Assembly (NCBI RefSeq): GCF_032854445.1 | Contig: NC_088303.1 | Coordinates: 1,743,501-1,807,500 of the forward strand | Direction of reading: 5' to 3' | Source: Liolophura sinensis | Taxonomy: Eukaryota; Mollusca; Polyplacophora; Chitonida; Chitonidae | DNA length: 64,000 bases | Shown: positions 598 through 62,030 of the stretch, piece by piece | How positions within the stretch are numbered: position 1 is the first letter of the stretch | How the letters are laid out: every line of letters begins with the position of its first letter | Position numbers and translations under genes: made by a program | Notes under the pieces: model-generated | Told to the model about the DNA's origin: nothing | Databases searched by the model: none | The model's input: the letters and a program-made list of their open reading frames with translations, nothing else

Positions 598-3500
598 CTT
601 AGGCCACAGACATGTGACTGCTCGTAGTTAAAAAGGGAATGTATCTTAGCAGGGGTGTTTACCATTACCAGACGATCAATCAGAGACTGAAAACAAAGAA
701 AATTCACAGAACCAAAAGAATTCAATTAATCATGTGGGAATGAGAAAAAAAAAACAGCAGCATAATAAAAGTAACATATAAAGCTCTCTGAAATCAATAG
801 TTTCTAGGACCTCCACAAATCTGATGCTTGCTATATACCCATGATTAAAAATACGTCTGTACAAGTTCAAAGCCACTTGTCTACATCACCACAATGGCAC
901 GGATGAAGATCGATCTAATATGGGATCAAATAGCAGACCATGTCTATATAGTTTAATTGAACAGTAGTACAGATATGTTGATCACAGTACAGTAACTACA
1001 ATTGCCTGAACTCACTGCCACTGTGTCGGGCATCTGCCTCAGGGAGTAAAACTCCTGGACCGTTACCCTCTGGTCTGCTAGGGCCTCGTACACAGCCGGG
1101 AAAGATGTCAGCACGTTGAGCAATCGAATGAGGGGCTATATGGAGAAGAAACAGATTCATGAATTACATGAATTTCAAGCCACTTCTATCAAATTATAAG
1201 CGATACCAAAAAATGTTATCAAAATCAGCCAATAGTTGAAGCAGTTGTTGTAAACACACATTATCTGAATGTTACAATTATATTTGTCCACAGGGTCACA
1301 CTCTGAGTTCATCAGAATCAACTACAGAAAGAACACCATAAAGCAGCAAGAGATTGTTCTTACAAGGATGTGTGTAGCTCACCTGTAAATCACCCAGAAA
1401 ACTTACTTTGTGTGAGGGCCTGTCTATGGGGTCAACTGGCCAGATCCTGGGAGCTAAGACAGGCTGGTCAGACAGTCCACATTCCAAAACTGACCACAAC
1501 TCATGAATAAGTGCCTGGATAAATCCTGGTAACACATGAGCAGGGCTTGTCACAGGCATTTTATGGTTAAAAAGAGGAAGTATTTACTTTGTTACTTGGT
1601 TGGTGTTCATTTATTTGTTACTTGGTTGGTGTTCATTTACTTGTTACTTGGTTGGTGTTCATTTACTTGTTACTTGGTTGGTGTTCATTTATCTGTTACT
1701 TGGTTGGTGTTTATTTATTTGTTAATTGGTTGGTGTTCATTTATCTGTTACTTGGTTGTTCATTTACTTGTTACTTGGTTGGTGTTCATTTATTTGTTAC
1801 TTGGTTGGTGTTCATTTAATTGTTACTTGGTTGGTGTTCATTTATCTGTTACTTGGTTGGTGTTTATTTACTTGTTACTTGGTTGGTGTTCATTTATCTG
1901 TTACTTGGTTGGTGTTTATTTACTTGTTACTTGGTTGGTGTTCATTTACTTGTAACTTGGTTGGTGTTCATTTATCTGTTACTTGGTTGGTGTTCATTTA
2001 CTTGTTACTTGGTTGGTGTTCATTTTTTTGTTACTTGGTTGGTGTTCATTTATTTGTTACTTGGTTGGTGTTCATTTATTTGTTACTTGGTTGGTGTTCG
2101 TTTATTTGTTACTTGGTTCGTGTTCATTTATTTGTTTCTTGCGGGGCCTCCGTGGCTCAGTTGGTTAGTGCGTCAGCACAGCATAATGACCCAGGAGCCT
2201 CTTACCAATGCAGTTGCTGTGAGTTCTAGTCCAGCTCATGCTGGCTTCCTCTCTGGCCGTAAGTGGGAAGATCTGTCAACAACCTGTGGATGGTCGTCGG
2301 TTTCCCCCGGGCTCCCCGGTTTCCTCATGACCTTCAGGAGGTAAGTAGCTGACAATCCTCATGACCTACACTAGGTAAGTAGCTGACAATCCCCATGACC
2401 TTCACCAGGTAAGCAGCTGGCAATCCCCATGACCTTCACTAGGTAAGTAGCTGACAATCCTCATGATCTTCACCAGGTAAATAGATGACAATCCTATGAC
2501 CTTCACCAGGTAAGTAGCTGACAATCCTCATGACCTTCACAAGGTAAGTAGTTGACAGCCCCCATGACCTTCACCAGATAAGTAGCTAACAATCCTAATG
2601 ACTTTCACAAGGTAAGTAGCTAACAATCCTAATGACCTTCACCAGGTACGCAGCTGACAATCCTCATGACCTTCACAAGGTAAGTAGCTGACAATCCTCA
2701 TGACCTTCACCAGGTAAGTAGCTGACAATTCTCATGATGTTCCCCAGGTAAGTAGCTGACAATCCTCATGACCTTCACCTGGTAAGTAGCTGACAATCCC
2801 CATGACCTTTACCAGGTAAGTAGCTAACAATCCCCATGACCTTCACCAGGTAAGTAGCTAACAATCCCCATTTTGTTTCACCAGGTAAGTAACTGACAAT
2901 CCTCATGACCTTCACTATGTAAGTAGCTGACAATCCCCATGACCTTCACCAGGTAAGTAGCTAACAATCCCTATGACCTTCACCAGGTAAGTAGCTGACA
3001 ATCCTCATGACCTTCACAAAGTACGTAGCTGACAGTCCTCGTGACTTAGAGCTGCAGCTGATCCAGCCATAGTTGAATCTGAACTGGCAAAATGATTGGT
3101 AAGGGGCTGATTGGCTGCAGTGAGAATTCATTATCCAAATGAGCTAGTGAGGGGCCTCAGTACAGTAGAGATACATGTTCCTTACTTCAGCATAACACAA
3201 TGATTCAATGGCTGTTAATTTTCCATATATGCAATCACACTCAGTTTTATAGGCCCAGAGTAATCCACAAACTTATGGTCAGTTACATATGAGCTATCCT
3301 ATAAGTGATGTAGAGACTGGTACATCAAATTTGTGGACAGTAAGAGGTCTTCAGTCATTGCTTTGATGTTTTTGTTTTTGGGGGTTTTTTTGATTTGCTT
3401 TTGTTTGTTTTTGCATCAGTCAGTGTTGTTACAGGCAAGAGGTAATGTAATTACAATATTAAAATGTAGCAATAAATTGGCAAGTATTTCTAAATGAAAA

Positions 3501-6500
3501 AAGCTATAAGAACAAGAGTAAAAAAACATGGTGCCACAATGAATTTAATTTGACCTGTTTTTCCCATCTGATTAACCAATCAAGCTGCAGCACTGGCAGA
3601 AAAACGCATGCGTGTGCCTAAATAATAACACATACTACAGATGTAATTCTTCAACCTATTTGAATGTTTGCAAGGTGTTTATTCAAGCATATCATGAAGG
3701 CAATATTCATTGTAGACTGATAAAATTACACACTTTGTGAAGCCCTGAAACTGGCCAATCCAACCAATGTAGTTTTGTATAAATTGCATTGAAAGTTGCT
3801 CTTTTATATGTGGAAAAGGTTGAGGAACTAGGGTATGTGCTTTATAACAATCAACTAAAAACCCAACTGTGGACTGACTACCACACATACACAAATAACC
3901 AGACAGAGGCCAGATGGGCAGGTAGCCAGCTCCTTCCCCCACGTACCTGAGTTCAGAAGGGCGACCATGCCCGGGGCTGTAGTGGCCACCTGGGTAACCA
4001 TGTAACCATAGCCAAACTTCTCACGCTTGCTCACCTGAAGACCAAGAGAACTACAGCACATAGTCTAAAACAAGAATTCCTAAAGGTTCATGTAACATTT
4101 TCTAAGTGACACTACCATGCCTGTAAGATTATTTTTCTTATTTATTTAATTAATGCTATATTCAAGTATATTTCATTCCTACAATGGTGAGGAATCTCCC
4201 ATTACCTTGATGTCAAGTTCCATCCAAGTTTATGAAATGGTGGGAGGAAACCGAGCAGAGCTTGGAGAAAACCCAGGCTGCTGACAGACTTCCCCATGAG
4301 TCCCACTAAGGGAGGAAGCCAGCATAAGCTGCACTTGAATACACAGCAATCACATTTGGTTCTGGCTCCTGGTTCATTGTGCTGCCAGAGGAAGCCAAGC
4401 AATCTGCTATGGAGGCCCTCAAATTCTTACCTGAACTTGAATACAAGTACATGGTAATGCAGCTGACAGTGGCATCTGCATGACAACGCTTCAAACATAC
4501 GAAAAATATACGATAAAAAATGTATATCACATTGCAATCAAAAACTGGATAAAAAAAAAAAAACAATGCTCAAAATAAATCTTTGTTCATCTTGCTGTAC
4601 ACTACAAGCACTGTGATAAAGCCATAGCTTTATCACAAAGGTGAACATTTCTGTCAGTTACCTGGAGTTTCTTGGCATATCTAGCTGACATGTAAGACAC
4701 ACACTCATTAAGGCTGCCTGTCTGCTGTAGTAACAAAATTCCTTTGGCTGTGCTGGCAAAATTCAGCAAGTTATCCCGCAATGTGTCCTCCCAAACCAAT
4801 CTGAAACAAGAAATTGTAGGGAGAATTTCACTTAACTTGATAACATTATTGGTACTACACTGAAATAGCATTCAAATAAAAAAGATGTTGTTCCAGTGTT
4901 TAATTGAAGGCCTTATCACAACAAAATGTTGACATCACAATTATTGATCTCTTTACAGATGGCATCTTCTCATAAGATACATGTAAAACAAATACGCCTG
5001 GTTTCTATTTCATTTAAAGTATCAAAACAGCTTTACATTCATAAAACTGCAAGTGAAGCTTGCACAACTTTAACACAACACAAGGCTTTAACACAACTCT
5101 TTAGTCTCTAAAGGTGAAAAAGTAACACCCCCAAATTTTGTTCATGACCACGCTGTTCATATTTCCAGATTCTGAAAGTTGTATTGATTTTAGAGAGGTG
5201 CTCTGAAAGTTGTATTGATTTTAGAGAGGTGCTCTGAAAGTTGTGTTAATTTTAGAGAGGTGCTCTGAAAGTTGTATTGATTTTAGAGAGGTGCTCTGAA
5301 AGGTGTTTGGAGGGAAGGATGATTTCCTCCAGGGAAAACATAAATTTTTGCACCAGAGGAAATATTTCATGACATTTATTTGCCTCCAAAAATGCTCTTT
5401 TATGGTCTAATTTTTACGTCATTTAGGGTATGTGATTTGCCAAAAATGTTTGGCATCATTTACTTGTTGCCATTAATTTACCGATCACCTACCTCACCAC
5501 ACTGCATGACATTTCTGACAGGTCACATGAAATCTTAGGACCACTCTCACATTTAGTGATTTTTAACATTTAACGTTGTAGTAACCGTGATCAGTTTGGG
5601 TAAATGAGCGCACTTACGCTGACTGTCCATTAGACCGTCCCCTGCGGTCATCACTGGGTCCTGGGGTTGGGGTAGGAGCTTTCTCAGCTTCTAGACATGC
5701 CTGATAGACAGTAAATACAACCAGAAGATGTATCAACATTACGCACATCTAGTGTTCATGTGATCAAAACTACACAATCTAGTGTTCATGTGATCAAAAC
5801 TACACAATCTAGTGTTCATGTGATCAAACAAGGCTGCTATGGTGACACATGGTTAAGTCATGAATATGAAGCAGTTTAGTTCAGAGATACACTCAACAGA
5901 ATCCAAAACCCAAATTTCTTGACAACTTTCACTACAACTTAATCTTCAGATTAAAATTCATAAAACTTTTCAGGCATTTAAAATGTCAACTCATGGGGTC
6001 TACAAATAAATCAAATTTGACAGAATTGACTATAAAATCAGCTACTTCCACAAAGTATACCTTTCAAATCTCATGATAAAAATTTGACGGACAGCGTGAC
6101 AGGCAGACGGGGCAACTATTAGAGCAGACTGTCACAGTGAAAAATGTGGCATGGAGTGCACCGTAGCAATACAAACTGACCTGATGGAAAGCCTGTGCCA
6201 CACAAGAATGGAGGGAATAGTGAGAGAGAATGAGGAGGCCCTCATAGGTGTTGTACAGCTGACGACAGATATACAGGCAGTCTCCTATCACAGCTTTGGA
6301 CGGAGGCTCAGCAAAGCCAGGGGTGAGTTTATTGTCCAAGGCTTTGGTGGTAAACTCTGTTATGACCCGAGCAGCAGATGACCTGAGGATGTCACAAAGC
6401 AAAACAAGTACTAAACATTTCCAAAAGGCATGGTTTATACAGGCATAGGATTTATTTGATTGGCAACTGAGGCAGAAAAGCTATCAGAATTATGACAACT

Positions 6501-9500
6501 TATTACCTGTCATCTCATACATAGAGCCCCATTCTTAAGCTAGGAATGACTGATAAGGCATATCATTCTACACATGCCACATTCCACATGTGAGATGTAT
6601 TTCACACCATTCCCGATCAATTCTTCAAAAGTGCATTTCAAATTCAGCCAGCCTCATCAATATTAATATTAGCAATACCCAAACTAAAACCCACTTTTAG
6701 CATTTTAATACAGCTCAAAATTGCACTTCACATTTATAACCATTAAGAAAACCAGAGCTAACAGTAGACTTTCAGGACCACTTTCACAAAACTTTGTAAA
6801 TCTGTTTTTTGCAACTTTTCTTGTAAATGATGTCGCCTTATGGCACTATAATTCAGACGCTTCTTTTACAAAAAAGCTACAAGAAATATGACCTACAAAG
6901 TTTTGGGAAAGTGGCTTCTATTTCCTTGGTCCTTACATTTTACATCCCATATATGTGTAACACTCATGACACCAAAATTCAACAAGAATATGAGAAGATG
7001 AGAAATGTAAACAACTGTACCTTGGTGTAAAACCCATATTGTACAGCATTAAAACATGATATTTATTTATTTATTTGATTGGTGTTTTTCACCATCCTCA
7101 AGAATATTTCACTTGTACGATGGAGGCCAGCATTATGGTGGGAGAAAACCGGGCCAAGCCCAGGAGAAACCCACGACCATCCACAGGGATATGGCCAGAA
7201 TATTTAATAGTCTGTAATAGCCAAAGAACTGTGGAAATATGGCCTACTATAATAACCTGAAACAGCCAAATAACTGTGGATATATGGCCTACAATAATAA
7301 CCTGACATAGCCAAATAACTGTGGACATATGGCCTACAATAATAACCTGACATAGCCAAATAACTGTGGACATATGGCCTACTATTATAACCTGACATAG
7401 CTAAAGAACTGTGGACATATGGCCTACTATAATAACCTGACATAGCTAAAGAACTGTGGACATATGGCCTACTATAATAACCTGACATAGCCAAATAACT
7501 GTGGACATATGGCCTACAATAATAACCTGACATAGCCAAATAACTGTGGACATATGGCCTACAATAATAACCTGACATAGCCAAATAACTGTGGACATAT
7601 GGCCTACAATAATAACCTGACATAGCCAAATAACTGTGGATATATGGCTTACAATAATAACCTGACATAGCCAAATAACTGTGGACACATGACCTACAAT
7701 AATAACCTGACATAGCCAAGGAACTGTGGACATATGGCCTACAATAATAACCTGACATAGCTAAAGAACTGTGGACATATGGCCTACTATTATAACCTGA
7801 CATAGCTAAAGAACTGTGGACATATGGCCTACTATAATAACCTGACATAGCTAAAGAACTGTGGACATATGGCCTACAATAATAACCTGACATAGCTAAA
7901 GAACTGTGGACATATGGCCTACTATAATAACCTGACATAGCCAAGGAACTGTGGACATATGGCCTACAATAATAACCTGACATAGCTAAAGAACTGTGGA
8001 CATATGGCCTACAATAATAACCTGACATAGCTAAAGAACTGTGGACATATGGCCTACAATAATAACCTGACATAGCTAAAGAACTGTGGACATATGGCCT
8101 ACTATAATAACCTGACATAGCTAAAGAACTGTGGACATATGGCCTACAATAATAACCTGACATAGCTAAAGAACTGTGGACATATGGCCTACTATAATAA
8201 CCTGACATAGCCAAGGAACTGTGGACATATGGCCTACAATAATAACCTGACATAGCTAAAGAACTGTGGACATATGGCCTACTATAATAACCTGACATAG
8301 CCAAGGAACTGTGGACATATGGCCTACAATAATAACCTGACATAGCTAAAGAACTGTGGACATATGGCCTACTATTATAACCTGACATAGCTAAAGAACT
8401 GTGGACATATGGCCTACTATTATAACCTGACATAGCCAAATAACTGTGGACATATGACCTACTATAATAACCTGAAACAGCCAAATAACTGTGGATATAT
8501 GACCTACTATAATAACCTGAAATAGCCAAATAACTGTGGACACATGACCTACAATAATAACCTGACATAGCCAAAGAACTGTGGATATATGGCCTACAAT
8601 AATAACCTGAAATAGCCAAATAACTGTGGACACATGACCTACAATAATAACCTGACACAGCCAAATAACTGTGGATATATGGCCTACAATAATAACCTGA
8701 AATAGCCAAATAACTGTGGACACATGACCTACAATAATAACCTGACATAGCCAAAGAACTGTGGATATATGGCCTACCATAAGAACCTGACATAGCCAAA
8801 TAACTATGGACATATGGCCTACTATAATAACCTGACACAGCCAAAGAGCTGTGGGCATATGGCCTACTATAATAACCTGAAACAGCCAAATAACTGTGGA
8901 TATATGGCCTACAATAATAACCTGACATAGCCAAATAACTGTGGACATATGGCCTACTATTATAATCTGACATAGACAAATAACTGTGGATATATGGCCT
9001 ACAATAATAACCTGACATAGCCAAATAACTGTGGATATATGGCCTACTATAATAACCTGAAATAGCCACATAACTGTGGATATATGGCCTACTATAATAA
9101 CCTGACATAGCCAAATAACTGTGGGCATACGGCCTACTATAATAACCTGAAACAGCCAAATAACTGTGGACATATGGCCAACAATAATAACCTGACATAG
9201 CCAAAAAACTGTGGATATATGGCCTACTATAACAACCTGAAATAGCTAAATAACTAAACCATGGAATACTAAATATCAGCTGTAATTAGATGGAATTATC
9301 CATCAGCTAATCACCTTGCTATCACCTTATAGCGGTAATCAGAAGTTACATACTATTTACTGTTTCAAAAACATTCCTGTGATTTTTACTCAGCTCAGTA
9401 CTTAAGGGTGATTACACAGTGAAGTTAAATTGTTGGTATATTGTGTGCATGTATTTACAGTATACAAGTACTCACTCATTCCTGGAGAGCAAGGTCCTGT

Positions 9501-12500
9501 CCTGGCCATAGAGCAGATGTCTTCTCCCTCGGGTACTGGAGGCAATGACGGACAGGATGTCAGCTACCCTCAGCAGTGTGCCCTCACTAGGCAGCTGGGC
9601 AGAGGATATGTCCTGTAACTGACAGAGAGGCATGGGTAATTCACAAGGCAGTTGGACAGAGGATATGTCCTGTAACTGACAGAGAGGCATGGGTAATTCA
9701 CCAGGTAGCTGGACAGAGGATACATCCTGTAACTGACAGAGACATGGGTAATTCACCAGGTAGCTGGACAGAGGGTATGTCCTGTAACTGACAGAGACAT
9801 GGGTAATTCACCAGGTAGCTGAACAGAGGATATATCCTAAAACTGACAGAGAGGCATGGGTAATTCACCAGGTAGCTGGACAGAGGATACATCCTGTAAC
9901 TGACAGAGACATGGGTAATTCACCAGGTAGCTGGACAGAGGGTATGTCCTGTAACTGACAGAGACATGGGTAATTCACCAGGTAGCTGGACAGAGGATAC
10001 ATCCTGTAACTGACAGAGACATGGGTAATTCACAAGGCAGTTGGACAGAGGATATGTCCTGTAACTGACAGAGAGGCATGGGTAATTCACCAGGTAGCTG
10101 GACAGAGGATACATCCTGTAACTGACAGAGAGGCATGGGTAATTCACCAGGTACCTGGACAGAGGATATATCCTGTAACTGACAGAGAGGCATGGTTAAT
10201 TCACCAGGTAGCTGGACAGAGGATACATCCTGTAACTGACAGAGACATGGGTAATTCACCAGGTAGCTGGACAGAGGGTATGTCCTGCAACTGACAGAGA
10301 GAAATGTGTAATTCACCAGGGAATGGAGCAGATGACATGCTGATAACACACTGTATAGACTTACAGACTGTGGTTCTAGCCACTGCTCCAGCGGGGTGAG
10401 GAGGGCGTTAGTGATGCTGTCCTTACACAGGCAGATCTCACACACTTCCTCTGTACTGCACAGCACCTTGAGGGTCTGGGTAAGCAGATGAGGGGGACAC
10501 CAATCCTCTGTAACAACATCACGAGCATATCATTATAAAGAACAGTTTGATTTGATTGGTGTTAATCAAAAAAAATATTGTAATCAAAAATATTTCATGT
10601 ACGCCAGTGATCAGTCCTACATGTATTTGTGGAGGAAACAGGAGTATCCAAAGTAAACCACTGCCCTTTGGTAAGTAAATGATGAACTTTCCTCATGAGT
10701 CAACTGAAAATCAAGCATGATAGCCACAATCTAGCTTGCTGTTTGATTATTCAAGGCAACTCTGATAAAATCCATGCATAGAAGGATGAACAAATGTGAT
10801 GCTCATTAAATGCTTCCAATTTAACACTTGTTTTTACACATCATACTATTTATTATCATGCATCCATGTCCAAGTGCTACTGTACTTCACCTCAAGTTTA
10901 GTATTTTCCATGAGACACATTGAGCTGGATTCTGACTAATTCTTCTCTGTTACACTGCCACAGGTGAGTTATTTTCTGAACTCTGATTAATGTGTCTTTA
11001 TGTGCTTCTGAAAGTGCAATATTTCAAACTAAACTTATCAGTAAATTAAGGTAGTTTAAAGGAGAAGAAAACACTATAGGCTGAAAAGAGCACATTTTTT
11101 TCTATCTGGTGGTGCCTGCTGCATAGTTTTGCAATTTTTCCTTGCCATACTCGTAAAGCCTGAAAAGGGCAAAGCTGGCATGAATCACTGAGTCCATCGT
11201 GTCTTCCATCTTTAACACCCTGTAATTTTTCCTGGGGGGGTGGGGGGGTGGGGGGGGGGTTGCCTCTCAGCAATGAGAGTCGTTAAAACTGCCGGCTTGT
11301 TTGTGTAAACTCGGATTCTCTGTCCAACATTCCGGTTCCCGACCGTCAAGCGCAAAAGGAATCATACAGTTCGCTACCTTCTGGGAAGAAAAGTTCTACC
11401 GGAAATGTACGAACTGCACTTCGGCGGTTTCCAAAGGCAATTCTCCTCTTAAAACAGAAGATTTCAGGACTAGTTCTTAGGCAAAATGAAGTCACCCACA
11501 GCGGATTTTGCCGCTGACTTTATTTATAATTTATCAACTTGAGGTACAAATTAGAATTTTTTTTATGGCATGCACCTGCAAGGAAATGCATACTCTTTTC
11601 AACTGTATTTGTTTCATATTTAAATTTTCTTCTCCTTTCTGTTGTATTGGTTGCCATGTTGATGATATGTTTCACACCTTTATATCATCACAAGTTAAAT
11701 TCTTAATTACGATGCAGTACAACATTAGGATTTGCACAGACATTAGTTGAAGATCAGTTGTCTTCCACCTACATGGCAACTTTCTCACTGCTCTACATTT
11801 TTTTCATTTGGCAAAAGTATCTCAAAATGTAACAATAATCTTATCTATCAGAATCATTTATTTTTACCATTTTGTTTGTTTTTTCACTTGATATCATTTC
11901 AAGTAATTTCAAGTATAGTAGTTTCAAATATTTTAAAATTCACACAGACAGAGGTGAAAGAATGAAGTAAAACGTAAGCTACCTGTGGCAGGTGAAGCGG
12001 TAGGTGTGTCCGGGTCTGTAATCAGGGATATCATGGCTACCAGCAGGTTGCTTATCGTCAGAGGTTCTGTAAATAATACAAAATAAATGTGAAACAGTAT
12101 GACAAACACATCTCCGGCAAAATGACATCTTGTGATGACACTGTTGCCAGGGACATCAGGCTGTCCTTTTCCTTCATCTGTCAACTGAACAAAACTACCT
12201 CTGTTCATCAACATCAAACTTCCTGGATGAAAGATAATTATATTCATTTTTTGGAGTGTCGCTGAATGTCATACTCAAGAATTTTGGTGAAAGAAAATGA
12301 AAAGCGTACTCAGTAAGAGAATTTGCAAATGTTTAAAACTATAAATACTAGTTATTGTCAATAGTCAATAAGTATTTGTGTGTTTTACCTTGATTAGATC
12401 TTTAAAACCATCAGGTTGCTTTAAAGTGCAGTGCTAGAGGAACCTCATTTAATACCAGATCAGTGTGTCAAGGTATAACCTTCATAACAAAGTCATAAAT

Positions 12501-15500
12501 CCATTTTCCAGTAACTATTTTTCCTTGATATTACATCATAAGACAATGTTACTTTACACAAGAAAAGGTACAAATCTCACAGGCTGTTTTGATTATTACC
12601 CTATACTAGACTGGTTTCTAGTGACTTCTAGCATTCTGGCTAAAAATCTTCACTTCTGTTTTAACCATTTGAACAGACAAGAAGAGGTTTTGATCTGAAC
12701 AGGCAAATTAATCAGTAACATTCTGTATCAGCAAACGTATCAAATATCCGAGACACTTCGGCCTGTGCAATACACAACTTAAGCTCTAAAATTTCCTCGA
12801 GACAGGGCTTCAATCAAAAGGCACTAGACCATGATAATGATTACAGATATGAAACCACATCTGGGCATCAAGGCTAGAGGGAGACAAATCCTACCTGTTC
12901 TGTCAGGCAGCTTAACCGGGAAGAAATCTCGCCCTCTGGTATAGCTTAGCAGACTGCCCAGGAAGTGGACAGAGTGGATGAAGTAGGCATACTCCAGCTC
13001 TGCTCCTGTGTACACCATACGCTGACCAGTCACTGAAAACACATGGACACAGCCTCGTTATATGTACTTATATGCTGTCGTTTACAATACAGTTGCTGTA
13101 GTATCCCCAGGATCACAAAAACATCTCCTTATTTTATATATAATCAATTTTGTTACATAGGACTTCCTTGATACAGTATAAAAGAGACAGGCCAGTTACT
13201 CTCTGACCTGAGGTAGAACTTAACTGTAAAGGAGAACATGAAACTGACTGAGGTAATGGAGCTTACATGATGATGTCCACGGAGCATTTTCTGAGGTGTC
13301 ACTCATCCGATCTGATGAACATCTGCGTGAGCTACAGTAACGCAGACAATGTCGTACAGCATTCTCTAACTGAAAAGTTCATAAAGCCAAGGGTACTACA
13401 AAAACATTTCACGACTAATTTATGCAGCCTACAGGAAAGTGGTAAAGCATACGGGTAACACAAAGCAGGCAAAGTTGTCGGGAAATCATGTAGAGCTCAG
13501 AATAAATCACAATACTGAAACCAGTCATAATATATAATCCATACAGAGATTTGAAGTATGTTTATCTTAACAAATACATGTCTTTGGGTGTCAGTTTTCT
13601 GTGGGGTGTATCTGTGGTATTGTCATTTTCTTGTGGGGCGTATCTGTGATTTTACTTACGATGGATGGATATCGCTGGAGCATTGTCAAGACTGGCAACC
13701 TGCTGTAACTCCCATGCTACAAAAGTAAACACATTTTATCCATCTGTTCATTTCTTATTAAAGTGGTGTGCTATGTGGCATTGATGTGAAAGAATGCATT
13801 ACCAATTATAAGCACTGAACATATATGTACATTTTGTAACATGTGGTAGACTTCACAGTATAGATTAAATATAAAAATAAAACTGCCATCACATCAACAG
13901 TTACAAAACTGCCACTTACATCAACAGTAACAAAACTATCACTTACATCAACAGTCACAAAATGGTCATTTGCATCAACAGTAACAAAACTGTCACTTAC
14001 ATCAAGTCACAAAACTGCCACTTACATCAACAGTAACAAAACTGTCATTTACATCATCACAAAACTGCGATCTGCATCAACAGTCACAAAACTGCTATTT
14101 ACATCAACAGTTACAAAACTGCCATTTATATCAATAGTAACAAAACTGACATCACATCAACAGTAACAAAACTGCCATCGTGAGTGCTCTGTGTATCTAT
14201 CACAAATACTTACCATCCATTTGATGAACCAGGAGGCTTTAGGGTCAAGGACAGCTATAAGATGTGAAGGGGAGACAACCTGGGCTGTCTCCAATGACAA
14301 CAGGTCAAGAGTGCTCTGTAGAATCTCCTCCATGTACCTGACAACACACAAGAAACACAATGTACACACACCACAAGTATTTCGCTTTGGCCATCACATA
14401 GTTTGCAAACTTTTAAGGTGTTAGTTTTTAAGAGTTCCAAACAGGATAACTGATGAAGTTCATGGGAAACTCTGCAGCGATGAAGAATTTCGCCTTGACA
14501 TGGCTACAATATTGCCGAAGTGGAATTAAGCCATATTAAACATTCCTTCAATTTAAAGAGGAGTTAGCAACCAAGAACACCTGAAGCAACAAAACAGAAT
14601 ACATAAGAAGGATACATGATGTTTTTATCTCTCTCAGAACATAAACAAGGTCTTGTAACCACCCTTGGTCAATCCAGAAGAATGGGAGAGCAGTCTAAAA
14701 TGCACATGGCTAGTCCAGAGTTCAGACTTTGAATCTCCTCTCTGACAACACAAGGGTAATCAGAGGTAAAATCTTTAAGACCCATTCTATTTACCAGAAA
14801 ACCTAGACTTAAATATGCTCAATTTTATGCCTTCCTGTTAAGGTGTTTCTTACAGCACAAAGGGTTCAAAATGATTCACAATGTATAACACCATTTCAAG
14901 GGTAGTGATGAACTGTCCTTACCAATACCAAAACCTTTGCTAAGTTTCCACACAACTTGCCTGATGTCACATGAACTTATTCCTCATGTCATGTTAAAAA
15001 AGACAACTGTCTCAGAATGACATAAAAGTGTGGCTCCATGACACACCAGAAGTGGGAATGACAGAAACATTCTCTTTCAGTATGATCCTCTAAGAAAACA
15101 AACTTAGGGATACCCTATAAACTGGTCAGAATTTATGAAAGCTAATCATCACTTAACGATCACTTGTACAGAAGGTGATGTAGGCCTTTTCATCAGAAAA
15201 TTGTAATAAGTGTCCGTCTTACTTTTCTGGATAGCGAACCCAATAACCAGGAGCTTCACGCTGGAATTCGTTCATCAGTCGGAACTGTAATAAAAATATA
15301 AATAATAAATAAAAATAAAATAATAAAAAATAAAAGACAGGACTATATCAACCACATGGTTAAAAATGACATAACATTTTAAAACCGATGACTTAAGACA
15401 TATATAGATGTACAATAAACCCCAAAAGCTTTATATATTTAATTCTCCATGATGCGTCTCTCCACAGAGGATCAGACTAAATGTTTCAATCACAAGAGTG

Positions 15501-18500
15501 TTATACATGAAGAGAAATAATCTGTTTCAAGTAAATGATAGTGACAAAAAATGGAGCACTATGTTTGATACTCACAGCTTTGAGAAGACGCACTGACTCA
15601 ACTTTTCTCAGATCTAACCCGCTCTTCAGGCTGGAGATGGCCGTGCTTTTATGGGAGGTCATTTGAGAGGATAGGAATTTCACTGGCAATGGACATAAAT
15701 ATTAATCATACAAACAAAAAAAAACATTCTTACTGTAACTGTATTTTCCTTAGATGGGAAAAATTTATAAACTGATCAAATTTAACCTCTAGTTTTGTAG
15801 TTTGAGCTTTTGACAGTTCTTTATCTTGAGCCTGTGAGGTTAACTGTAATATTGCCTTCAGACATATGAATGTAACAGAATACTGACCATGAAGAGTAAT
15901 AGTGATGATAGCAGTTTGTATTTTCCTACTGCAGATCAAGAAGGACTCACCAAGTAGAGTGAATATCTCTCCAGTCCGTGGTGTAGTTGTAGAAAAGGCT
16001 TGCATTATAAATTTCAAAGTTGAATTCTACACATGAAGAAAAACAAAAATGAAAAAAAAAGTAAACACTGTCAAACATGATGTAATTCTGGTTTCAGGAA
16101 ATTGGTTTTCTTTACAGATTACTAAATGCAGCTGTATTCCATAATAAAAACATATATGAGTTTCCAATTTAATGCAATCAATTGCCAAGGCAGATCATTT
16201 TACAATTTACCCTGGAGGTCTATACAGTGTTCTAACAGTTCTATATGTGACACACACATGCAAAAGTCCAGTATTAAGGCAAGGATTAACACTGATTGAA
16301 ACACATACTGTGTATTATTGACCTGTAGGTCAAATTCACACTGCCCAAGGCGATGAATAGGACTAAATAGGAATATCTGGACTAAAATCAGGATATGAGG
16401 TTTCGCTCTTATAGGGCTATTACTAACAGCTTCAAACTTCCTGGGGGCCTCCGTGGCTCAGTCGGTTAGCGCGCTAGCGCAGCGTAATGACTCAGGAGCC
16501 TCTCACCAATGCGGTCGCTGTGAGTTCAAGTCCAGCTCATGCTGGCTTCCTCTCCGGCCGTAAGTGGGAAGGTCTGCCAGCAACCTGCGGATGGTCGTGG
16601 GTTTCCCCCGGGCTGTGCCCGGTTTCCACCCACCATAATGCTGGCCGCCGTCGTATAAGTGAAATATTCTTGAGTACGGCGTAAAACACCAATCAAATCA
16701 AATCAAACTTCCTGTCCTATCCAAATGAATAAAACAAACTAACCTCTTATGATTAACTGTCAATGGCTAAACTTGCAAGAATGAACAGATTTTCCCTATT
16801 GAAAAAGGCAGGAAAATGAGAACATAACTGTATTTTGTGTTAACAGGTACAAATATCTGCCTTCACACACCATTAGATTGACAGATAAACTAAACTCACC
16901 GCGAGATTCTGGTCAGGGTCAGCCAAAAGGTCAAGGACACTACTTTTAACCTGATGCCACTGGTCACTACACACAATTTCTGTTGCCGGAATCATGTTGA
17001 GTTGGCGGAGAGCCTCGCGGCGAATCTAAATATGGAATGGAAGATTTGTGCAGATGTTAACTGAAAGAAATTTACACTTGTAGTCAAGGCAGTTTTTATA
17101 TCACATTTATTGTTTTCTTTTTTTTACAGTATGTGTGTTTTTGACCAGACATTTCCATATCATACAACAGAATACCCTACAAATATTATACCTCTGGAGG
17201 CTGTCCCTTTTCTAGATCCTCTGTCAATCGAACAAAACGATCTGTGTTCATGAACATGAAACTTCCTGGCTGAAAGACAATTACAAGTTATCAACATTAA
17301 TTCTGATATATGCCTGTAAGTATATTATTTTATCCAAATATGTTAAACAAAGACAAATGTTAATAATCTACTCAGCTTGCATTTTCCTTGTATTTTTGTA
17401 CTGACAGCCATGAATACCTAAATGCACTGTAACATAGCTTGATTTCGCACTTGGCACAACCTCTGAATTTAATAAAAAACTTTAAAATCTATAATAAAAC
17501 AACTATTCAGTCCCATATCATTTTTCATGGCTTAATAGGAAAATACAAAATGAGGCAAAAAGACAGAATATAGCTTACTGTTGTGTACATGTATCTTCAA
17601 CTCTTATTAAAGGGTAGATGGACATTTTATGGCCAAGTTCAAAAGATGTAAACAACAGCACAGCCTGGTAAAAAAAATCATAAAGTATCACCAAACTCAA
17701 ATTGGTGGCTTTTAATAATACACTATACTAAATACATACAACATTTCAATTAAATATCTTCACAAGTAACTAAAAAAAAAAAATAAAAACCAGAAAAGTG
17801 GGATAGACCCAAAGGGTGACAGGACACAGATAGTCATCTGGCTTACCAGAAAAATGAATATTATAGGGATATGTGTATTATATTTGATTTGGTTTTTCTA
17901 CGCCATATCATTATTCACGAATATTTGACTTCTAAAGCAGTGAAGGCTCTGCCGGAATTTATTAACCAAACACACCTGGTTAAGGGAGCTGCTGTACGAG
18001 GTTTCATCATCATCGGGATAATGTTTTCTGGGTCGTGAGGTTTCCTGCGAGCTCTCCCCATTGTGGACAGCTGATTCAAACTGTCTACCAAAGTTCTGAA
18101 GCAAATCCTCCGCAGCTTCTGTCACGGCTCGCTTTAACTTTCCCACCAGCTCTGACATGCTGCATTGAAAAAATATCACAAAAGATATGTGCAACAGAGG
18201 ACAGGTTCATGAGTGAAGGATAACGCATACAGAAAACCAAACCTGCTGCTACATACCTGACTGAAGTCCATACTTGACCCAGCGAGACACATTTGTCAAA
18301 GGTAGTCATAGTCTTCTGACACAAGCATGAGGGAGCGATTTCACAGTTTCTAATACACACCCCTCATGTACAAGTGTAAGTATATCACATGTACCTTGGC
18401 ATGCAGCTTACTGAGTTAAGTCAAAATTCCACTGCTCTGATACCCTCAAGGTTTAACCTCACCACAATGTTCAAATGACATTTATGTTCAACAAAACACA

Positions 18501-21500
18501 TTGTTATTCTTATAAAAGCCAGCATATGTAAATTCTGGTAGCAGCTTATGATCATAAGGAAACTCTCGTACGGACTAGAGTGAATCACACGCTCTGTGAT
18601 TCGGTCTACTTGCGTCTCATCCTGTCCCACCTCCTCCGGCACTCCCATGCTGCATTTCTCAATCTCTTCATCGATGAATCCACCAAGGTTTTCCTCGATG
18701 CTTCTCTTCAATTGCTTCACAAACTCATATCTGCAGGGGATGACAATAAAATCTTCACTGATGTTTGTTGATAATATCAATAAACATGTCTCATTGTAAG
18801 CGCATACTTGACAGTAAACACGCAGGCCTATGAACTTCACTCACGCAGACACGTCAGCGAAAAAAAAAAAAATGTCCAAATCACATGAAGTCTAATGTAA
18901 AACTCATTGCTGTATGGCAACGTAAGTCCAAAACTATGCTGTGCTGACGTTCACAATTTACATATGTGCAGATTGCAAACAGTCGTGTTTTCTAACATAC
19001 TATAATTTCCAGTTATATCAGATCTAGTTCTCACACCATCTTCCATTGTTGTTCATTTCCCTATACCTTACCATGTGCCGGGATGTGTATGCTCAGGACT
19101 TTTTCACCCTGTCATCTGGAGAAGTGCCTGGTGTGAAGTGCCTGGATGTGTATGCTCAGGACTTTCTCACCTTGTCGTCTGGTGAAGTGCCTGGATGTGT
19201 ATGGTAAGGATTTTTCACCTTGTTGTCTGGTGATGTGCTGGGAGGTGTATGCTCAGGACTTTTTCACCTTGTTGTCTGGTGAAGTGCCGGGATGTGTATG
19301 GTCAGGACTTTTTCACCTTGTCACCTGGTGAAGTGCCGGGATGTGTATGGTCAGGACTTTTTCACCCTGTCATCTGGTAAAGTGCCGGGATGTGTATGCA
19401 CAGGACTTTTTCACCTTGTCGTCTGGTAAAGTGCCAGGATGTGCACGGTAGGGATTTTTCACCATGTCGTTTGGTGAAGTGCCGGGATGTGTATGCTCAG
19501 GACTTTTTCACCTTGTCGTCTGGTAAAGTGCCAGGATGTGCACGGTAGGGATTTTTCACCATGTCGTTTGGTGAAGTGCCGGGATGTGTATGCTCAGGAC
19601 TTTTTCACCCTGTCGTCTGGTGAAGTGCGGGATGTGTATGCTCAGGACTTTTTCACCTTGTTGTCTGGTGAAGTGCCTGCATGTGGATGCTCAGGACTTT
19701 TTCACCTTGTCACCTGGTGAAATGCCGGGATGTGTATGCTCAGGACTTTTTCACCCTGTCGTCTGGTGAAGTGCCTGGATGTGTATGCTCAGAACTTTTT
19801 TACCTTGTCGTCTGGTGAAGTGCCTGGATGTGTATGCTCAGGACTTTTTCACTTTGTCGTCTGGTGAAGTGCCGGGATGTGTATGCTCAGGACTTTTCAC
19901 CCTGTCGCCTGGTGAAGTGCCGGGATGTGTATGGTCAGGACTTTTTCACCTTGTCGCCTGGTGAAGTGCCGGGATGTGTATGCTCAGGACTTTTTCACCT
20001 TGTTACCTGGTGAAGTGCCGAGATGTGTATGGTCAGGACTTTTTCACCTTGTTGTCTGGTGAAGTGCCGGGATGTGTATGCTCACAACTTTTTCACCTTG
20101 TCTGGTGAAGCGCCTGGATGTGCATGGTCAGGACTTTTTCACCTTGTTGTCTGGTGAAGTGCCGGGATGTGTATGCTCAAAATTCTTTCACCTTGTCTAG
20201 TGAAGCGCCTGGATGTGCATGGTCAGGACTTTTTCACCTTGTTGTTTGGTGAAGTGCCGGGATGTGTATGCTCAGGACTTTTTCACCTTGTTGTCTGGTG
20301 AAGCGCCTGGATGTGAATGGTCAGGACTTTTTCACCTTGTCTGGTGAAGTGCCGGGATGTGTATGCTCAGGACTTTTTCACCTTGTTGTCTGGTGAAGTG
20401 CCGGGATGTGTATGCTCACAACTCTTTCACCTTGTCTAGTGAAGCGCCTGGATGTGCATGGTCAGGACTTTTTCACCTTGTCTGGTGAAGTGCCGGGATG
20501 TGTATGCTCAGGACTTTTTCACCTTGTCGTCTGGTGAAGTGCCAGGATGTGTATGGTCAGAACTTTAACGTATAAACATGTATTTATATTTTATATATTT
20601 GAATATATATATTGACTCAAGAATATTACTTCATTTGTACAACAGACTAAACAGCAGTGAAGTTCATTTAATTTCATTTTATTTACTACATAGATATAAG
20701 GGGATGTAAAAACATATACAAAGTAGCTTTGGCGGGAGTAAAGTTCCAAAGAGCTTGTTATATCCCAAACTCAGGAAACACTGATAGTGACCTGCAATTG
20801 TACAAGACGAATAATTCTGCAACAATAAGGCAGGGTAAAACACATGTAATCAAACAGATAACAAGTAAATGTTCTGTCAGTTTAGATGTTAAGAGTGACG
20901 TAGAATTGAGAGACTTCAGACACAGGGGTAATTTACACGTACTCCACTCTCATGGACATTTGATTTTGATGTGTGAAGTGTTCATATGGTGCTATTGATT
21001 GGTTTGTGAAGATTGTTCAGGGTTCTAGTTGGGTAACTCGGTAGAGCAGATTGTTGTGCAAAAATTCTTTTAGAATTGGCAGGCAGTTTTTCTGGGTGAT
21101 GAATAAATTTATAGGCATTGACGATACAAGAAAACTGATTTAACATATAATTTATAGGAGGCACCAAGGAAAAGTTTATAGTTAAAAATAATTCCAAGAA
21201 AATTGACATTAGATACGACTATTATGACTATTATTTATTTATTTATTTGATAGGTGTTTTATGCCGAACTCAAGAATATTTCACTTATACAACAGCTGCC
21301 AGCATTATGGTGAGTGGAAACCTGACAGAACCCAGAGGAAGCCTACAATCATCCACAGGTTGTTTGCAGACCTTCCCATGAATGGCTAGAGAGGAAGCCA
21401 GCATGAGCTGGCTTGACCATTAAGAACTATGGAAGCGCTTTAAAAGAAAGTGTAACAGCATTGCTTTTGTTTTTCTAATATTTAGTGAGAGCTTATTTGC

Positions 21501-39137: not shown

Positions 39138-42100
39138 TCATCTTATCTCAACTTTTAACACTGCTTCTGCTTCTTTGGCAATCATTTTATGGACCTCGTT
39201 CACCTCTGCCTGTGTGAGAGTCCTATCCGTGTGTCGGTACACTATGCGGTAACAATGACTGCTTCGCTGGGTTTTCGGATGGACAAACGTGTCAATGTTC
39301 ACAACCTGTTCCACAAGGTCACCTCCGATGTTTCGTACAATGTCAAAGAAATCATTTTCACTGAAAGCTTCAGGGATCCAGAAGGACAAGTCACTGATAC
39401 ATTGTGGGTATAGGCTGACAGGCTGAAATGTAACAAAATGTGAGAGATGAGCTGAAACGTAACAAAATGTGAGAGATGAGCCAATATGTAACAAAATATG
39501 AGAGATGAGCCAATATGTAACAAAATGTGAGAGATGAGCTGATATGTCCTGAACAGAACATGTCTGTCACACAACAGTCAACATCTTGTGATAAATCATT
39601 ACAATTTATTCCAGTGCACTCATGATCATATATGTCTTAACAACCATTCATGATCTAAAATGAGAATGTGAACAAGGAGAGTACCTTTTTTGTGAAGTGT
39701 GGGTGCGAAGGAGGGGGGCAATTTTGAAGCAGAAGTTTTTCAACTTCACACCTTTCATATTTTACAACTGTTGTCTTTTCCCATGAAGATTTACTGGACT
39801 TTCAATGAATGTGAACTTTGGAACTTACCTTGTACTTGATATCAGAGTTGATATCAGCAATGTTAAACTGACTGAGGAAACCCGAATCTCGACTCCAGAA
39901 GATACGAATGTCTGGTATATCAAACAACAACATGGCTAACCTATCAAGACCAAGTCCGAAGGCCCATCCCACCTTATCACCAGCACCACCTGTTGGAAAG
40001 TCAATAATTTCTGTCACCGAAATATACGCGGCATTTGGTGGAATTATAGGGTGGATTTCACAAACAAAATTAATAGTGTTAGTGTCCAAAGATGTCTACA
40101 TCTTTCTTCTTTCATATAGTTACCTTTGTCAAAATATAATATATAATATGTGTACATATAATATAATATGTCCCATCCAGTTAAAATTTACAATGTATGT
40201 CCATCCAGTCAGAATATACAATGTATGTCCCACCAGTAAAAAAAAAATACACAATGTCTGTCTCTCCCAGCCAAAATATACAATGTATGTCCCTTCCTGT
40301 CAAAATATACAATGTATGTGTCACCCAGTCAAAATATACAATGTATGTCCCATCCAGTCACAATATACAATGTATGTCCCTCCCTGTCAAAATATACAAT
40401 ATATGTCCCTCCCTGTCAAAATATACAATGTATGTCCCTCCCTGTCAAAATATACAATGTATGTTTCATCCAGTCAAAATATACAATGTATGTGTCACCC
40501 AGTCAGAATATACAATGTATGTCCCACCCAGTCAAAATATACGATGTATGTGCCACCCAGTCAAAATATACGATGTATGTCCCACCCAGTCACAATATTC
40601 AATGTATGTCCCTCCCAGTCCCAAAATACAATGTATGTCCCACCTAGTCAAAATATAAAATGTATGTATCTCCCAGTCAAAACATACAATGTATGTATCT
40701 CCCAGTCAAAATATACAATGCATGTCCCACCCAGTCAAAATATACAATGCATGTCCCACCCAGTCACAATATACAATGCATGTCCCACCCAGTCACAATA
40801 TACAATGCATGTCCCACCTTGTCAAAATATACAATGTATGTATCTCCCAGTCAGAATATACCATGTATGTCCCACCTTGCCAAAATATACAATATAATTA
40901 TACTCCACCCAGTCAAAATATACAATGCATGTCCCACCCAGTCACAATATACAATGCATGTCCCACCTTGTCAAAATATACAATGTATGTATCTCCCAGT
41001 CAAAATATACCATGTATGTCCCACCTTGTCAAAATATACAATGCATGTCCCACCTTGTCAAAATATACAATGTATGTATCTCCCAGTCAAAATATACAAC
41101 GTATGTCTGCCTAAGCAAATCAAAATGAACAATATTCCTTATAAAGGAACACCATGCCAAAGACATCAAACAACATACCCTACCATCAACCTACAGAACG
41201 TATTGAGACTGGGTCAATTAGCCCTATCCCCTTATAAAGGATCACCATGCCAAAGACATCAGATAACACGCCCTACTGTCAACCTACAGAACGTATTGAG
41301 ACCGGGTCAATTAGCCCTATCCCCTTATAAAGGAACACCATGCCAAAGACATCAGACAACATACCCTACCATCAACCTACAGAACGTATTGAGACCGGGT
41401 CAATTAGCCCTATCCCCTTATAAAGGAACACCATTCCAAAGACATCAGATAACATGCCCTACCGTCAACCTACAGAATGTACTGAGACCGGGTCAATTAG
41501 TTATATCCCCTTATAAAGGAACACCATGCCAAAGACATCAGACAACATACCCTACTGTCAACCTACAGAACGTATTGAGACCGGGTCAATTAGCCCTATC
41601 CCCTTATAAAGGAACACTATTCCAAAGACATCAGATAACATGCCCTACCGTCAACCTTCAGAATGTACTGAGACCGGGTCAATTAGTCCTATCCCCTTAT
41701 AAAGGAACACTATGCCAAAGACACCAGATATGCCCTTCCGTCAACCTACAGAATGTACTGAGACCGGGTCAATTAGTCCTATCCCCTTATAAAGGAACAC
41801 CATGCCAAAGACACCAGATATCATGCTGTACCCTGTCAAAATATCCCATGTACGTACACCAGGTTGATCAGTAATTGGTTTATCCCCATATACTGAACAC
41901 CGAAAAAGGGAGTACCGATACTAAAATTGTGAATTATAAAATTTCAATTGAATCTGAGTCTCCTGCTGCCAATGAAAAGGATGTTCTAGCCGCATCAGGT
42001 AATCCAACTTTGAACCACTGGCCTTTGGGACCGTAGCCGATTCTTTTACCATTAGACCAATATGACATTCTCGCTAGGTCAGGTTGTGGGTCACCAGAAC

Positions 42101-44603
42101 ATTCTACTCTGATACATTCTCCACCTCTTTAAACCCGTCCTCCTGACAATCTGTAATTTCCTAGTTACCTGAGTGAAGTAGCTTTTGTTCCATGGTTCCG
42201 CAGCCTAGTACCTCCAGCCACTCACCAGCAAACTTGATCTCTAATTCCCACGACGGGTGGGTGAAGGGAAAGTAAGCCTCTACCCAGCGCATCTCTATGT
42301 CTGACAATTAAGCAACAGAACACACATTTTTTTAAAACAAAAGACAACCAGTAATACAACCTTAGTTATTTCACAAAAGAGGTGTGAACAAGACTAAAGG
42401 GCCACAATAAATTTTTCCATTGCGAATATAAATTTATAAATCAACTTTATATCTGGGACTGTTTCAAGACCATGGCGTACACCATGTTGGAAAAACCTGG
42501 GGTTTTACAACTTACTCACAATTTTTCATTTACATGAGGAGGAGTCATCATTAGGTGTGTATACACATATTGTCTTCCTGTATCTGGGGCAAGTCCATGC
42601 CCATCAAGTGCTACTGCCAATGAAGTATCAAGAGAAAAATCCAGACATGACACCCCACCCATTAACATTATACTGACCCCTGGCAAACCAGTCCTGTTTC
42701 CTTGCTCTAACCTCTTGGTTGGCAGAGCGCCAAGAGAGGCAGCAACAAGTTTCCATTATTAAAGTCGTTGGTATGATCCGACCTGGGTTTGATTCATGGT
42801 CTGGTGGTTTGCAGAAAAAATGATGTGGTGTTTCTCCTATGTACTAATCAATATGGATATTCAAGGGCAATAACTCGCTAGACAAATACATAATAACTGA
42901 CATGAGAACATTTGAAACATTTGAGTTTGAGATAACCACACAGATTCCTGGTATTAAAACCACCATTTTAGAATAATGCTCATTCGTCTATTCGTGCATT
43001 CATTCTCTTAATGAAGTTAATGGTACAAACCTTTTCCAAACAGATGAACTGCAAGTTTTTCAAGTGTGCTTTTCAGTCTGTGTTCTGATAACTTTGCTGC
43101 CTCTAACGAGTGTGTTTCTTGTTTATCTGATAATCTGCGACCATCTTCAAACAAGGACAAACCTCTCGGGTCTTTTACTTCTGAAAACAGCTATAGAAAA
43201 GTTAAGAACAATTAAGTTGAAAAGAAGAAAGCTTTTTGATACACAAGGATATCTCTCAAATTTTGTTCAGTTTATAATGATATTCGTTTGTGTTACATAG
43301 AAAGATGCAATTTTTCAAAGACTGAAGAAAAGATAGACGAAACTTCCTCTACCTCCCAGAGCTAGGCATTTTAAAGATTATGACTATGATTTAGGCACAT
43401 TAAAAGACAGCTGATCAGATAGATAAAATGTACATTTTTCAAACACAATATGTACTGTTTAAAGCCAGTACATAGTGTTTGCATGAAATGAACATCTATT
43501 TATGTTTTAGTGAAAGAAAACAAAAGATAAGTGAATATCATTGGAAAGTCTGCTTAACTGTGTTGGAATCTGTGACTATTAAGATACTCTGGTCTCCTTA
43601 ATATAGAGAGCCTGCGTGTCCTACATACACGTGGCTGTGGTGAACCTGCACCCTGATGGCGGACAACCCAGGGGGATGACACCCTGATGGCGGACAACCC
43701 AGGGGGATGACACCCTGATGGCTGACAACCCTGGGGGATGACACCCTGATGGCTGACAACCCAGGGGGTTGACATCCTGATGGCGGACAACCCTGGGGGA
43801 TGACACCCTGATGGCTGACAACCCTGGGGGATGACACCCTGATGGCTGACAACCCTGGGGGATGACACCCTGATGGCGGACAACCCAGGGGGATGACACC
43901 CTGATGGCGGACAACCCAGGGGGATGACACCCTGATGGCTGACAACCCTGGGGGATGACACCCTGATGGCTGACAACCCTGGGGGATGACACCCTGATGA
44001 ATTAACAGTGCATACCTCGTGTTCTGTGTACAGTCGTACCCCCTCCATCTGATGGAAAACTGGATAGTGACTTTTGTCTATCGTGTCTCTGCGATACACA
44101 TCGCCGACGACTAGGAAAGCATCCAGTCCTGAGCGGATGAGGTCTCTCTGGTGTGCTGAAGTGTGCGCCCGCAACATGTACTTTTGGTTGATGTAGTAGC
44201 TATCTGACGGGGCTCTAGAGGGATGGTTCTCAGGCACAAATAAACTGTCAAAGTTCTGCTCCAGAGTCACCACAGGACTGAGGTTGTCATACACAGAAAA
44301 CATCGGATTGCCAGAACGATTTAAAAAATGGGAGTAAAAGAAGTTCTGAATTCGCTGACGAATTATGTTTATCGGGTGACATTTCTGGTTGTGAAGCCGC
44401 CAGTCTAGTCGCGTTAGAATCCTGGGACTCACATTTGTGGCGGAATCTGTGTTGTATGTACTCCCTAATACTGTCACCTGACCTGGCTGTTCAGCTAGCA
44501 TCTGTGGTAAGTTCAGCCCTGTGGTTGTGCAGGTATGACGAGCACCAAACACAGTCACTGTTTTCTTCCATGCCAGCAGGGAGACTGTTGCACGTATAAA
44601 CAT
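39138..44603 (-). CDS. FARS2: Mitochondrial phenylalanyl-tRNA synthetase, complete, 5 coding exons
   Basis: Exons in transcript order: 44603-44016, 43190-43031, 42300-42169, 39989-39829, 39422-39138. The total is 1,326 nt, 441 residues plus TGA; human FARS2 is 451. All phases agree. The enzyme charges mitochondrial tRNA-Phe as a monomer. The start [14 protein letters not shown] is basic and presequence-like and lies 20 nt inside an exon whose acceptor is at 44,624. Class II catalytic core: HTSAHQ at residues 147-152, motif 2 GDVYRRD at 167-173, [14 protein letters not shown] from exon 3, and motif 3 [13 protein letters not shown] at about 301-313. The last exon (348-441) is the FDX-ACB anticodon-binding domain, with [15 protein letters not shown] and IGGDLVE. 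Residues expected for activity appear intact. The gene is head-to-head with LYRM4 and convergent with the NIPSNAP3-like gene. Confidence 0.97.
39423..39540. repeat. 29-bp repeat of the FARS2 exon 5 acceptor tract, about 4 copies
   Basis: On the minus strand the unit is a pyrimidine-rich tract ending TTTTGTTACATTTCAG, the real acceptor of exon 5. The next copy upstream keeps TTTCAG; the outer two have lost the AG. Confidence 0.88.
40165..41110. repeat. 29-bp minisatellite, about 32 copies
   Basis: The unit core is AAAATATACAATGTATGTCC, in FARS2 intron 3. A degenerate unit reappears at about 41,830-41,860, beyond the 93-bp array. Confidence 0.95.
41125..41835. repeat. 93-bp tandem repeat, about 7.5 copies
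   Basis: The units contain CCTTATAAAGGAACACCATG, AACCTACAGAACGTATTGAG and CCGGGTCAATTAG. A 93-bp unit is 31 codons, so a plus-strand frame stays open. It lies in FARS2 intron 3. Confidence 0.94.
42690..42870 (+). mobile_element. tRNA-like SINE head remnant
   Basis: TTGGTTGGCAGAGCGCC resembles an A box and GGGTTTGATTCATGG a B box, in FARS2 intron 2. No clear body or target duplication was seen. Confidence 0.35.
43648..43998. repeat. 31-bp minisatellite, about 11 copies
   Basis: The unit core is ATGACACCCTGATGGCGGAC, starting about 18 bp after the donor of FARS2 coding exon 1. It is GC-rich compared with its surroundings. Minus-strand frames continuing from the exon are read-through. Confidence 0.95.
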
Positions 44604-44694
44604 GATACCTATGTCAGAAAAGCCTGGAACAAAACCAACACAACCTGAATCATGCAATTATAGACAACTTTTCCATCATAAAGTAACAGTAGTT

Positions 44695-61807: not shown

Positions 61808-62030
61808 ATAAGGGCATACTTACCTGTGCAGCAGGGCAGACTTACCTGTGCAGTAGGGCAGACTTACCTGTGCAGTAGGGCAGACTTACCTGTGCAGCAG
61901 GGCAGACTTACCTGTGCAGTAGGGCAGACTTACCTGTGCAGTAGGGCAGACTTACCTGTGCAGCAGGGCAGACTTACCTGTGCAGTAGGGCAGACTTACC
62001 TGTGCAGTAGGGCAGACTTACGTGTGCATT
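61808..62030. repeat. 22-bp minisatellite with minus-strand consensus splice donors, about 10 copies
   Basis: The unit core is CAGACTTACCTGTGCAGTAG. On the minus strand each unit reads CACAGGTAAGTCTG, an ideal 5' splice site. Confidence 0.95.

Follow-up and report, generated by a model that had tools for sequence, protein, structure and literature searches.

What becomes of an exon whose own 3' splice site stands copied, again and again, in the intron in front of it? The question is raised by one exon of TBC1D32 in the chiton Liolophura sinensis, which lies on the minus strand of a 64,000-nucleotide (nt) stretch of contig NC_088303.1 (positions 1,743,501 to 1,807,500 of the forward strand of assembly GCF_032854445.1). 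We call the whole stretch the window and count positions from its first letter. The intron before this exon holds a tandem array that runs across the acceptor into the coding sequence. We consider it likely that the array is a tolerated local minisatellite, that the exon-proximal AG is the one in use, and that the upstream copies are near-neutral passengers.

The array at the TBC1D32 junction

The array was delimited with Tandem Repeats Finder (TRF), which reports 13.1 copies with 91% matches, and by a listing of its units and a whole-genome pattern search (Table 1). Each unit consists of the exon's acceptor followed by about 29 exonic nt, typically CTCTGTCAGTTACAG/GATGTATCCTCTGTCCAGCTACCTGGTGAATTACCCATG (a slash marks the splice site), and unit spacings mix 55 and 57 bp. 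The higher-order period of 112 bp that TRF also offered was rejected; it is the mix of the 55- and 57-bp units.

An earlier note on this sequence had described the unit as the exon's acceptor plus its first 27 or so nt, with about a dozen near-identical copies of the splice site upstream. The anatomy agrees, the overlap with the exon, which starts at 9612, being 29 nt. Thirteen unit-type acceptors stand in a row, the authentic one at 9612 and 12 upstream copies, or decoys, whose first exonic bases are at 10284, 10229, 10172, 10115, 10058, 10003, 9948, 9893, 9836, 9781, 9726 and 9669. All 12 decoys keep the AG (TTACAG in ten, TTGCAG in one, TTTTAG in one). The homology of these copies to the start of the exon, which the same note had assumed, is evident from the alignments, in which 24 to 26 of the exon's first 30 nt are identical to the array copies. 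On the intronic side the nearest copy (9669) is identical to the authentic acceptor over 30 of 30 nt, and 10 of the 12 decoys have exactly the authentic acceptor core, taken as positions −14 to +1.

This similarity is confined to the locus. For a 40-mer centred on the junction, 12 local copies reach 75% identity or more; as a control, at least one local copy was found at only 10 of 1236 random positions outside arrays in the window. Searched with up to three mismatches in the 609-Mb assembly, the unit core gave 13 matches (the 12 copies and the exon), and because all of them lie at the TBC1D32 locus, the array was most likely born from the TBC1D32 junction and not from a dispersed repeat. As judged from these matches, it is most likely a locally born minisatellite.

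The gene is identified by its protein family. The exons on either side of the intron, when joined, match the Pfam family BROMI (E 2.9e-13), which we take to be the broad-minded protein family, gene name TBC1D32. Scanned alone, the upstream exon matches profile positions 327–369 and the downstream exon positions 377–407. Additional BROMI matches were obtained in the interval 956–14339 of this strand, and the open frame 18424–18840 has a match to BROMI_N. The repeated codons, roughly the first eight of the downstream exon, correspond to the gap between profile positions 369 and 377 that neither exon matches when scanned alone; the chiton protein has ten residues there against seven profile positions.

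Joining the upstream exon to the AG at 9612 leaves the frame open and gives a BROMI score of 49.3 bits, the best of the AGs compared, and joining it to any of the ten farther AGs leads to a stop after 18 to 84 codons. Only the copy at 9612 precedes the full 137-nt exon and its donor, so that this AG is most likely the one used. A plausible course of events would begin with a short duplication across the exon's 3' splice junction, which would have founded a local minisatellite. Unequal exchange or replication slippage may then have enlarged it to about 13 units, filling the intron, while exon definition would lead the spliceosome to splice the upstream exon to 9612, the AG nearest the exon.

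Table 1. Features of the TBC1D32 junction array and of a second junction array in the window.
Feature	Position	Strand	Description
Upstream TBC1D32 exon (exon 14 in the earlier note)	10365..10507	-	143 nt; donor CAGTCT/GTAAGT; intron phase 0; open frame
Intron	9613..10364	-	752 nt; array fills all except about the first 44 nt
Minisatellite	9584..10320	-	55- and 57-bp units; 12 upstream acceptor copies; TRF, unit listing, whole-genome pattern search
Downstream TBC1D32 exon (exon 15 in the earlier note)	9476..9612	-	137 nt; acceptor GTCAGTTACAG/GACATATCC; donor AATGA/GTGAGT
Nearest decoy acceptor, first exonic base	9669	-	+57 nt = 19 residues, stop-free
Second decoy acceptor, first exonic base	9726	-	+114 nt = 38 residues, stop-free
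Ten farther decoy acceptors	9781..10284	-	each leads to a premature stop
Acceptor of last FARS2 exon (TTACATTTCAG/CCTGTC), weaker case	39422..39547	-	29-bp array, 4.3 copies; last copy is the acceptor

Junction arrays elsewhere and their placement

Arrays that repeat a splice junction recur in the chiton genome. Within the window, such an array was found at 2 of 23 junctions placed by eye (12 acceptors and 11 donors), one in TBC1D32 and one in FARS2. In the weaker FARS2 case (Table 1) the unit is intronic and AG is present in one of three further copies; the array was found by a test on 30 intronic nt plus 2, not by the test on 20 nt to either side of the junction.

Two samples of loci extended the count to the assembly. 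Sample 1 comprised 20 loci (146.6 kb) with 92 of the 213 listed myosin-head and kinesin exon matches (81 myosin, 132 kinesin); the loci were hand-picked for many matches per kb before any array had been seen, a choice that favours short introns. Sample 2 comprised 18 loci (83.4 kb), all the dynein genes with three or more DHC_N2 matches, and covered 85 of 86 matches, the last lying outside the fetched stretch. Using TRF and inspection by eye, we found a junction-repeating array at 8 of 184 exon-match edges in sample 1 and at 4 of 170 in sample 2, together 12 of 354 (about 3%), a rough figure that is probably low per true junction, since some matches overlap or cross stops and an edge need not be a junction. 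The arrays stand at donors in loci L006, L009 (two), L010, L025, L027 and L038 and at acceptors in L008, L016, L020 and L035 (two). Two of the counted cases are weak: the array at the L035 acceptor 4364 has two copies with AG in neither, and the L010 array, which by TRF begins about 50 nt inside the intron, was counted since its units repeat the donor. The array in L038 (1910–2036), a 58-bp unit in 2.2 copies made of a dynein exon end and its GTAAGT donor, may represent a junction array in its early stage. Tandem arrays of all kinds cover 37.8% of the window, as against 19.0% of sample 1 and 6.4% of sample 2.

Several candidates were left out of the count. The array at L012 111–604 has a 125-bp unit and lies at a kinesin exon end, with GG instead of the donor GT in its three further copies; that at L025 5681–6696 is not clearly homologous to the donor; that at L033 2064–2109 lies inside an exon match; and that at L016 1065–1373 has the type of sequence seen in the array that was counted at the following exon. 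No repeated junction was seen by eye in arrays of L021 (two), L034, L036 and L039. Other uncounted arrays within 80 nt of a match edge are L008 1516–1764, L011 5041–5316, L021 6622–6682 and L025 1359–1434.

Such recurrence might mean that splice junctions are preferred seeds of amplification, for example through transcription-linked breaks, so that arrays would be targeted to them and not random. We compared the observed arrays with arrays placed at random, allowing only limited intrusion into exon matches. With intrusions of up to 20 nt, sample 1 shows an excess in keeping with targeting (6 observed, 1.4 expected), a value reached in 0 of 600 runs and, in a second test, in 2 of 500, and for both samples together 7 were observed against 2.5 expected (8 of 500 runs). 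The excess fades as the limit is relaxed: at about 70 nt sample 1 has 7 against 3.9 to 4.4 expected (50 of 600 and 71 of 500 runs), and for the two samples together a 40-nt limit gives 8 observed and 4.9 expected (43 of 500 runs) and a 70-nt limit 11 observed and 7.3 expected (50 of 500 runs). The array in L025 enters this test with an intrusion of 68 nt because the Pfam match overruns the donor at 1676. Sample 2 by itself has no excess, with 1 observed against 1.2 expected at the 20-nt limit and 4 against 3.3 at the 70-nt limit. The junction excess over random placement is weak.

A stricter automatic test in sample 1 points away from targeting. Among the 123 junctions called automatically (76 acceptors and 47 donors), 6 have a local copy, one of these positives (L020) being set on a decoy and not on the AG nearest the exon, as against 392 of 1795 random non-coding positions; the count for exon middles is 2 of 92. 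Junctions thus lie in arrays less often than introns at large. We read these results as arrays landing nearly at random, with those that cross a junction being tolerated, and regard preferential seeding at splice junctions as rather improbable.

Frame and integrity of the upstream copies

The two decoys nearest the exon are the ones that could add to the protein. If 9669 and 9726 were partly used, TBC1D32 isoforms would arise in which a loop of the BROMI region is longer by 19 or 38 residues. Neither extension contains a stop or shifts the frame, the authentic acceptor and that of 9669 are preceded by the same 30 intronic nt, and the extra residues would enter between profile positions 369 and 377, a stretch not matched by either exon scanned alone. 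To that extent the proposal of the earlier note that every 57-bp unit adds 19 in-frame residues holds, for +19 at 9669 and +38 at 9726; it fails for the other ten copies, which run into stops and cannot act as isoform acceptors. Because ten of the 12 upstream AGs meet stops, a graded series of length-variable isoforms, as the note had envisaged, is not possible, and frame leaves two steps at most. Including one or two units lowers the family score by 12–13 bits (to 36.4 and 37.2 bits), and among the 13 arrays other than that of TBC1D32 unit length shows no frame preference, the TRF period being divisible by three in 4 of them, about the chance level. Partial use of the two nearest decoys is therefore improbable in our judgement.

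The ten copies that lead to stops suggest a different role, that of a poison element dependent on copy number, in which decoy use at a low rate would yield transcripts with premature stops, so that expression would fall with increasing array length. Besides these stops, the identity of the core to that of the authentic acceptor in 10 of 12 decoys speaks for such a role. We looked for a mark of selection on the decoys of 14 arrays (two from the window and 12 from the samples), picking decoys at 62% identity outside the dinucleotide and searching the exon side for no more than 200 nt. The splice dinucleotide is present in 154 of 205 decoys (75%), compared with 71% for other adjacent unit pairs of the same arrays. 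Since decoys retain this dinucleotide about as well as they retain other positions of the unit, no purging is seen; by dinucleotide counts in the 14 arrays and their 205 copies, there is overall no sign of decoys being purged or kept. This lack of a selection signal argues against a poison element, which we hold to be distinctly improbable.

The suggestion in the earlier note of a decoy bank that the spliceosome must ignore fits better than isoforms, the decoy dinucleotides being uneroded over the 14 arrays and the units lacking a frame preference. Within the range searched, all decoys lie on the intron side of the real site, acceptor decoys upstream of it and donor decoys downstream. In 62 of the 205 decoys, spread over 10 of the 14 arrays, the splice-site core (−14 to +1 for acceptors, −3 to +6 for donors) matches the authentic one exactly. 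Because the core by itself does not distinguish these 62 decoys from the real site, context is suggested to decide which site is chosen.

That the TBC1D32 array is a dispersed satellite or the tail of a mobile element ending at the exon by chance is scarcely credible: although another array of the window (2322–3045) seems to grow from the tail of a sequence resembling a short interspersed nuclear element (SINE), all 13 unit-core matches with up to three mismatches lie within the TBC1D32 locus, and the unit is at one end TBC1D32 coding sequence.

A tolerated minisatellite with the exon-proximal AG in use remains our preferred explanation, and several points weigh against it. The use of 9612 is a prediction from sequence, and the authentic AG may be a close neighbour, because in-frame AGs flank 9612 with scores lower by only 1.8 and 1.5 bits, one 6 nt upstream (TCAG/TTACAG, 47.5 bits) and one 18 nt downstream (CCCAG/CTG, 47.8 bits). 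Some arrays have lost the splice signal in many of their copies: AG is missing in 15 of 21 copies at the L035 acceptor 3062, in 13 of 42 in L020, in 2 of 3 in FARS2 and in 2 of 2 at the L035 acceptor 4364, and GT is missing in 6 of 11 copies in L027. Concerted homogenisation of units could mask weak selection on decoys. Finally, the authors of a paper on lancelet globin genes with comparable duplications (PMC3087553) state that the copies could serve as cryptic sites.

Known systems, wider meaning and neighbouring sequence

The closest counterparts are the lancelet "mirages", described in PMC3087553 and PMC3902484 as minisatellite-like tandem duplications of exon-intron boundaries, both 5' and 3', in the genes for Adh, troponin C, the globins BflGb6 and BflGb9, and PGBD5. 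The TBC1D32 array resembles them in spanning an exon-intron boundary (29 nt into the exon), in carrying the splice signal in its units (AG in 12 of 12 upstream copies) and in its unit length, 55/57 bp being within the range of about 10–160 bp of the cases in PMC3087553. It differs in its host, a mollusc as opposed to cephalochordates. The same two sources report regular splicing of mirage genes and length polymorphism, the BflGb6 haplotypes having 6 and 3 units, whereas the chiton array is known from one assembly sequence, at one place in the assembly and with no second haplotype; public RNA-seq data are available under SAMN35319765-69. Structurally, the TBC1D32 array belongs with the mirages, a kind already known and, as far as searched, new for the lineage; literature searches found no report of junction arrays in molluscs.

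Other comparisons are more distant. In human genes of segmental duplications, internal tandem repeats that arose by minisatellite expansion alter exon-intron structure, some of them at exon-intron boundaries; according to PMC2812944 the outcome among paralogues is longer exons or an association with new introns, whereas the chiton copies are intronic. The model of Rogers, as cited in PMC3087553, derives intron gain from tandem duplication of AG/GT proto-splice sites, and the chiton array shares with it a tandem duplication near a splice site and a possible source of new introns. Unlike in that model, only the acceptor side is repeated; the donor at 10365 is outside the array, so the TBC1D32 intron is not bounded by two unit copies. 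Recursive splice sites are likewise acceptor-like sites within an intron, but they require an AG followed directly by a donor, and the chiton units read AG/GA, with no donor after the AG.

On a wider reading, junction minisatellites would form a genome-wide class in a mollusc, present at about 3% of the sampled exon edges, donors as well as acceptors, so that by extrapolation thousands of introns would confront the spliceosome with series of almost identical sites. If array length varies between individuals, each array would provide a natural gradient of dose for studying how splice sites compete, and some may act as evolvable splicing dials or intron nurseries. The samples back recurrence, and the dial and nursery parts are speculative; taken whole, we think this reading unlikely. 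A chiton with a few percent of its junctions duplicated would offer a large test set for exon definition, for selection acting on cryptic sites and for intron birth, and would extend to a second phylum what has been described in lancelets.

Other arrays of the window lie close to junctions. One of 31-bp units at 43649–43999 (minus strand) starts 17 nt into the FARS2 intron after a large exon (donor after 44016), the donor being unrepeated, and one at 13879–14178 starts 36 nt into a TBC1D32 intron. The 34-bp array at 2322–3045 (plus strand), antisense to TBC1D32, has 11 copies with an exact donor-like word (C or A followed by AGGTAAGT) and presumably starts where a tRNA-SINE-like sequence (about 2143–2330) has its tail. 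At 61811–62028 (minus strand) a 22-bp array with nine exact CAG/GTAAGT words adjoins a possible exon (acceptor TTATTCTGTAG, donor CACAC/GTAAGT), which had no homology found for it and is a guess.

FARS2 occupies 39141–44657 on the minus strand. Complex1_LYR and NIPSNAP matches were found among the plus-strand open frames of the window and RVT_1 among the minus-strand ones; a FARS2-LYRM4 neighbourhood would, we assume, resemble the human one. Elsewhere in the assembly, contig C99 (loci L002 and L003; 108,685 bp) carries seven COX1 copies in the same orientation, about 15.4–15.6 kb apart, either an assembly concatemer or a real series. Contig C632 is the 15,209-bp mitochondrial genome, with a gene order that we take to be of the chiton and vetigastropod type.

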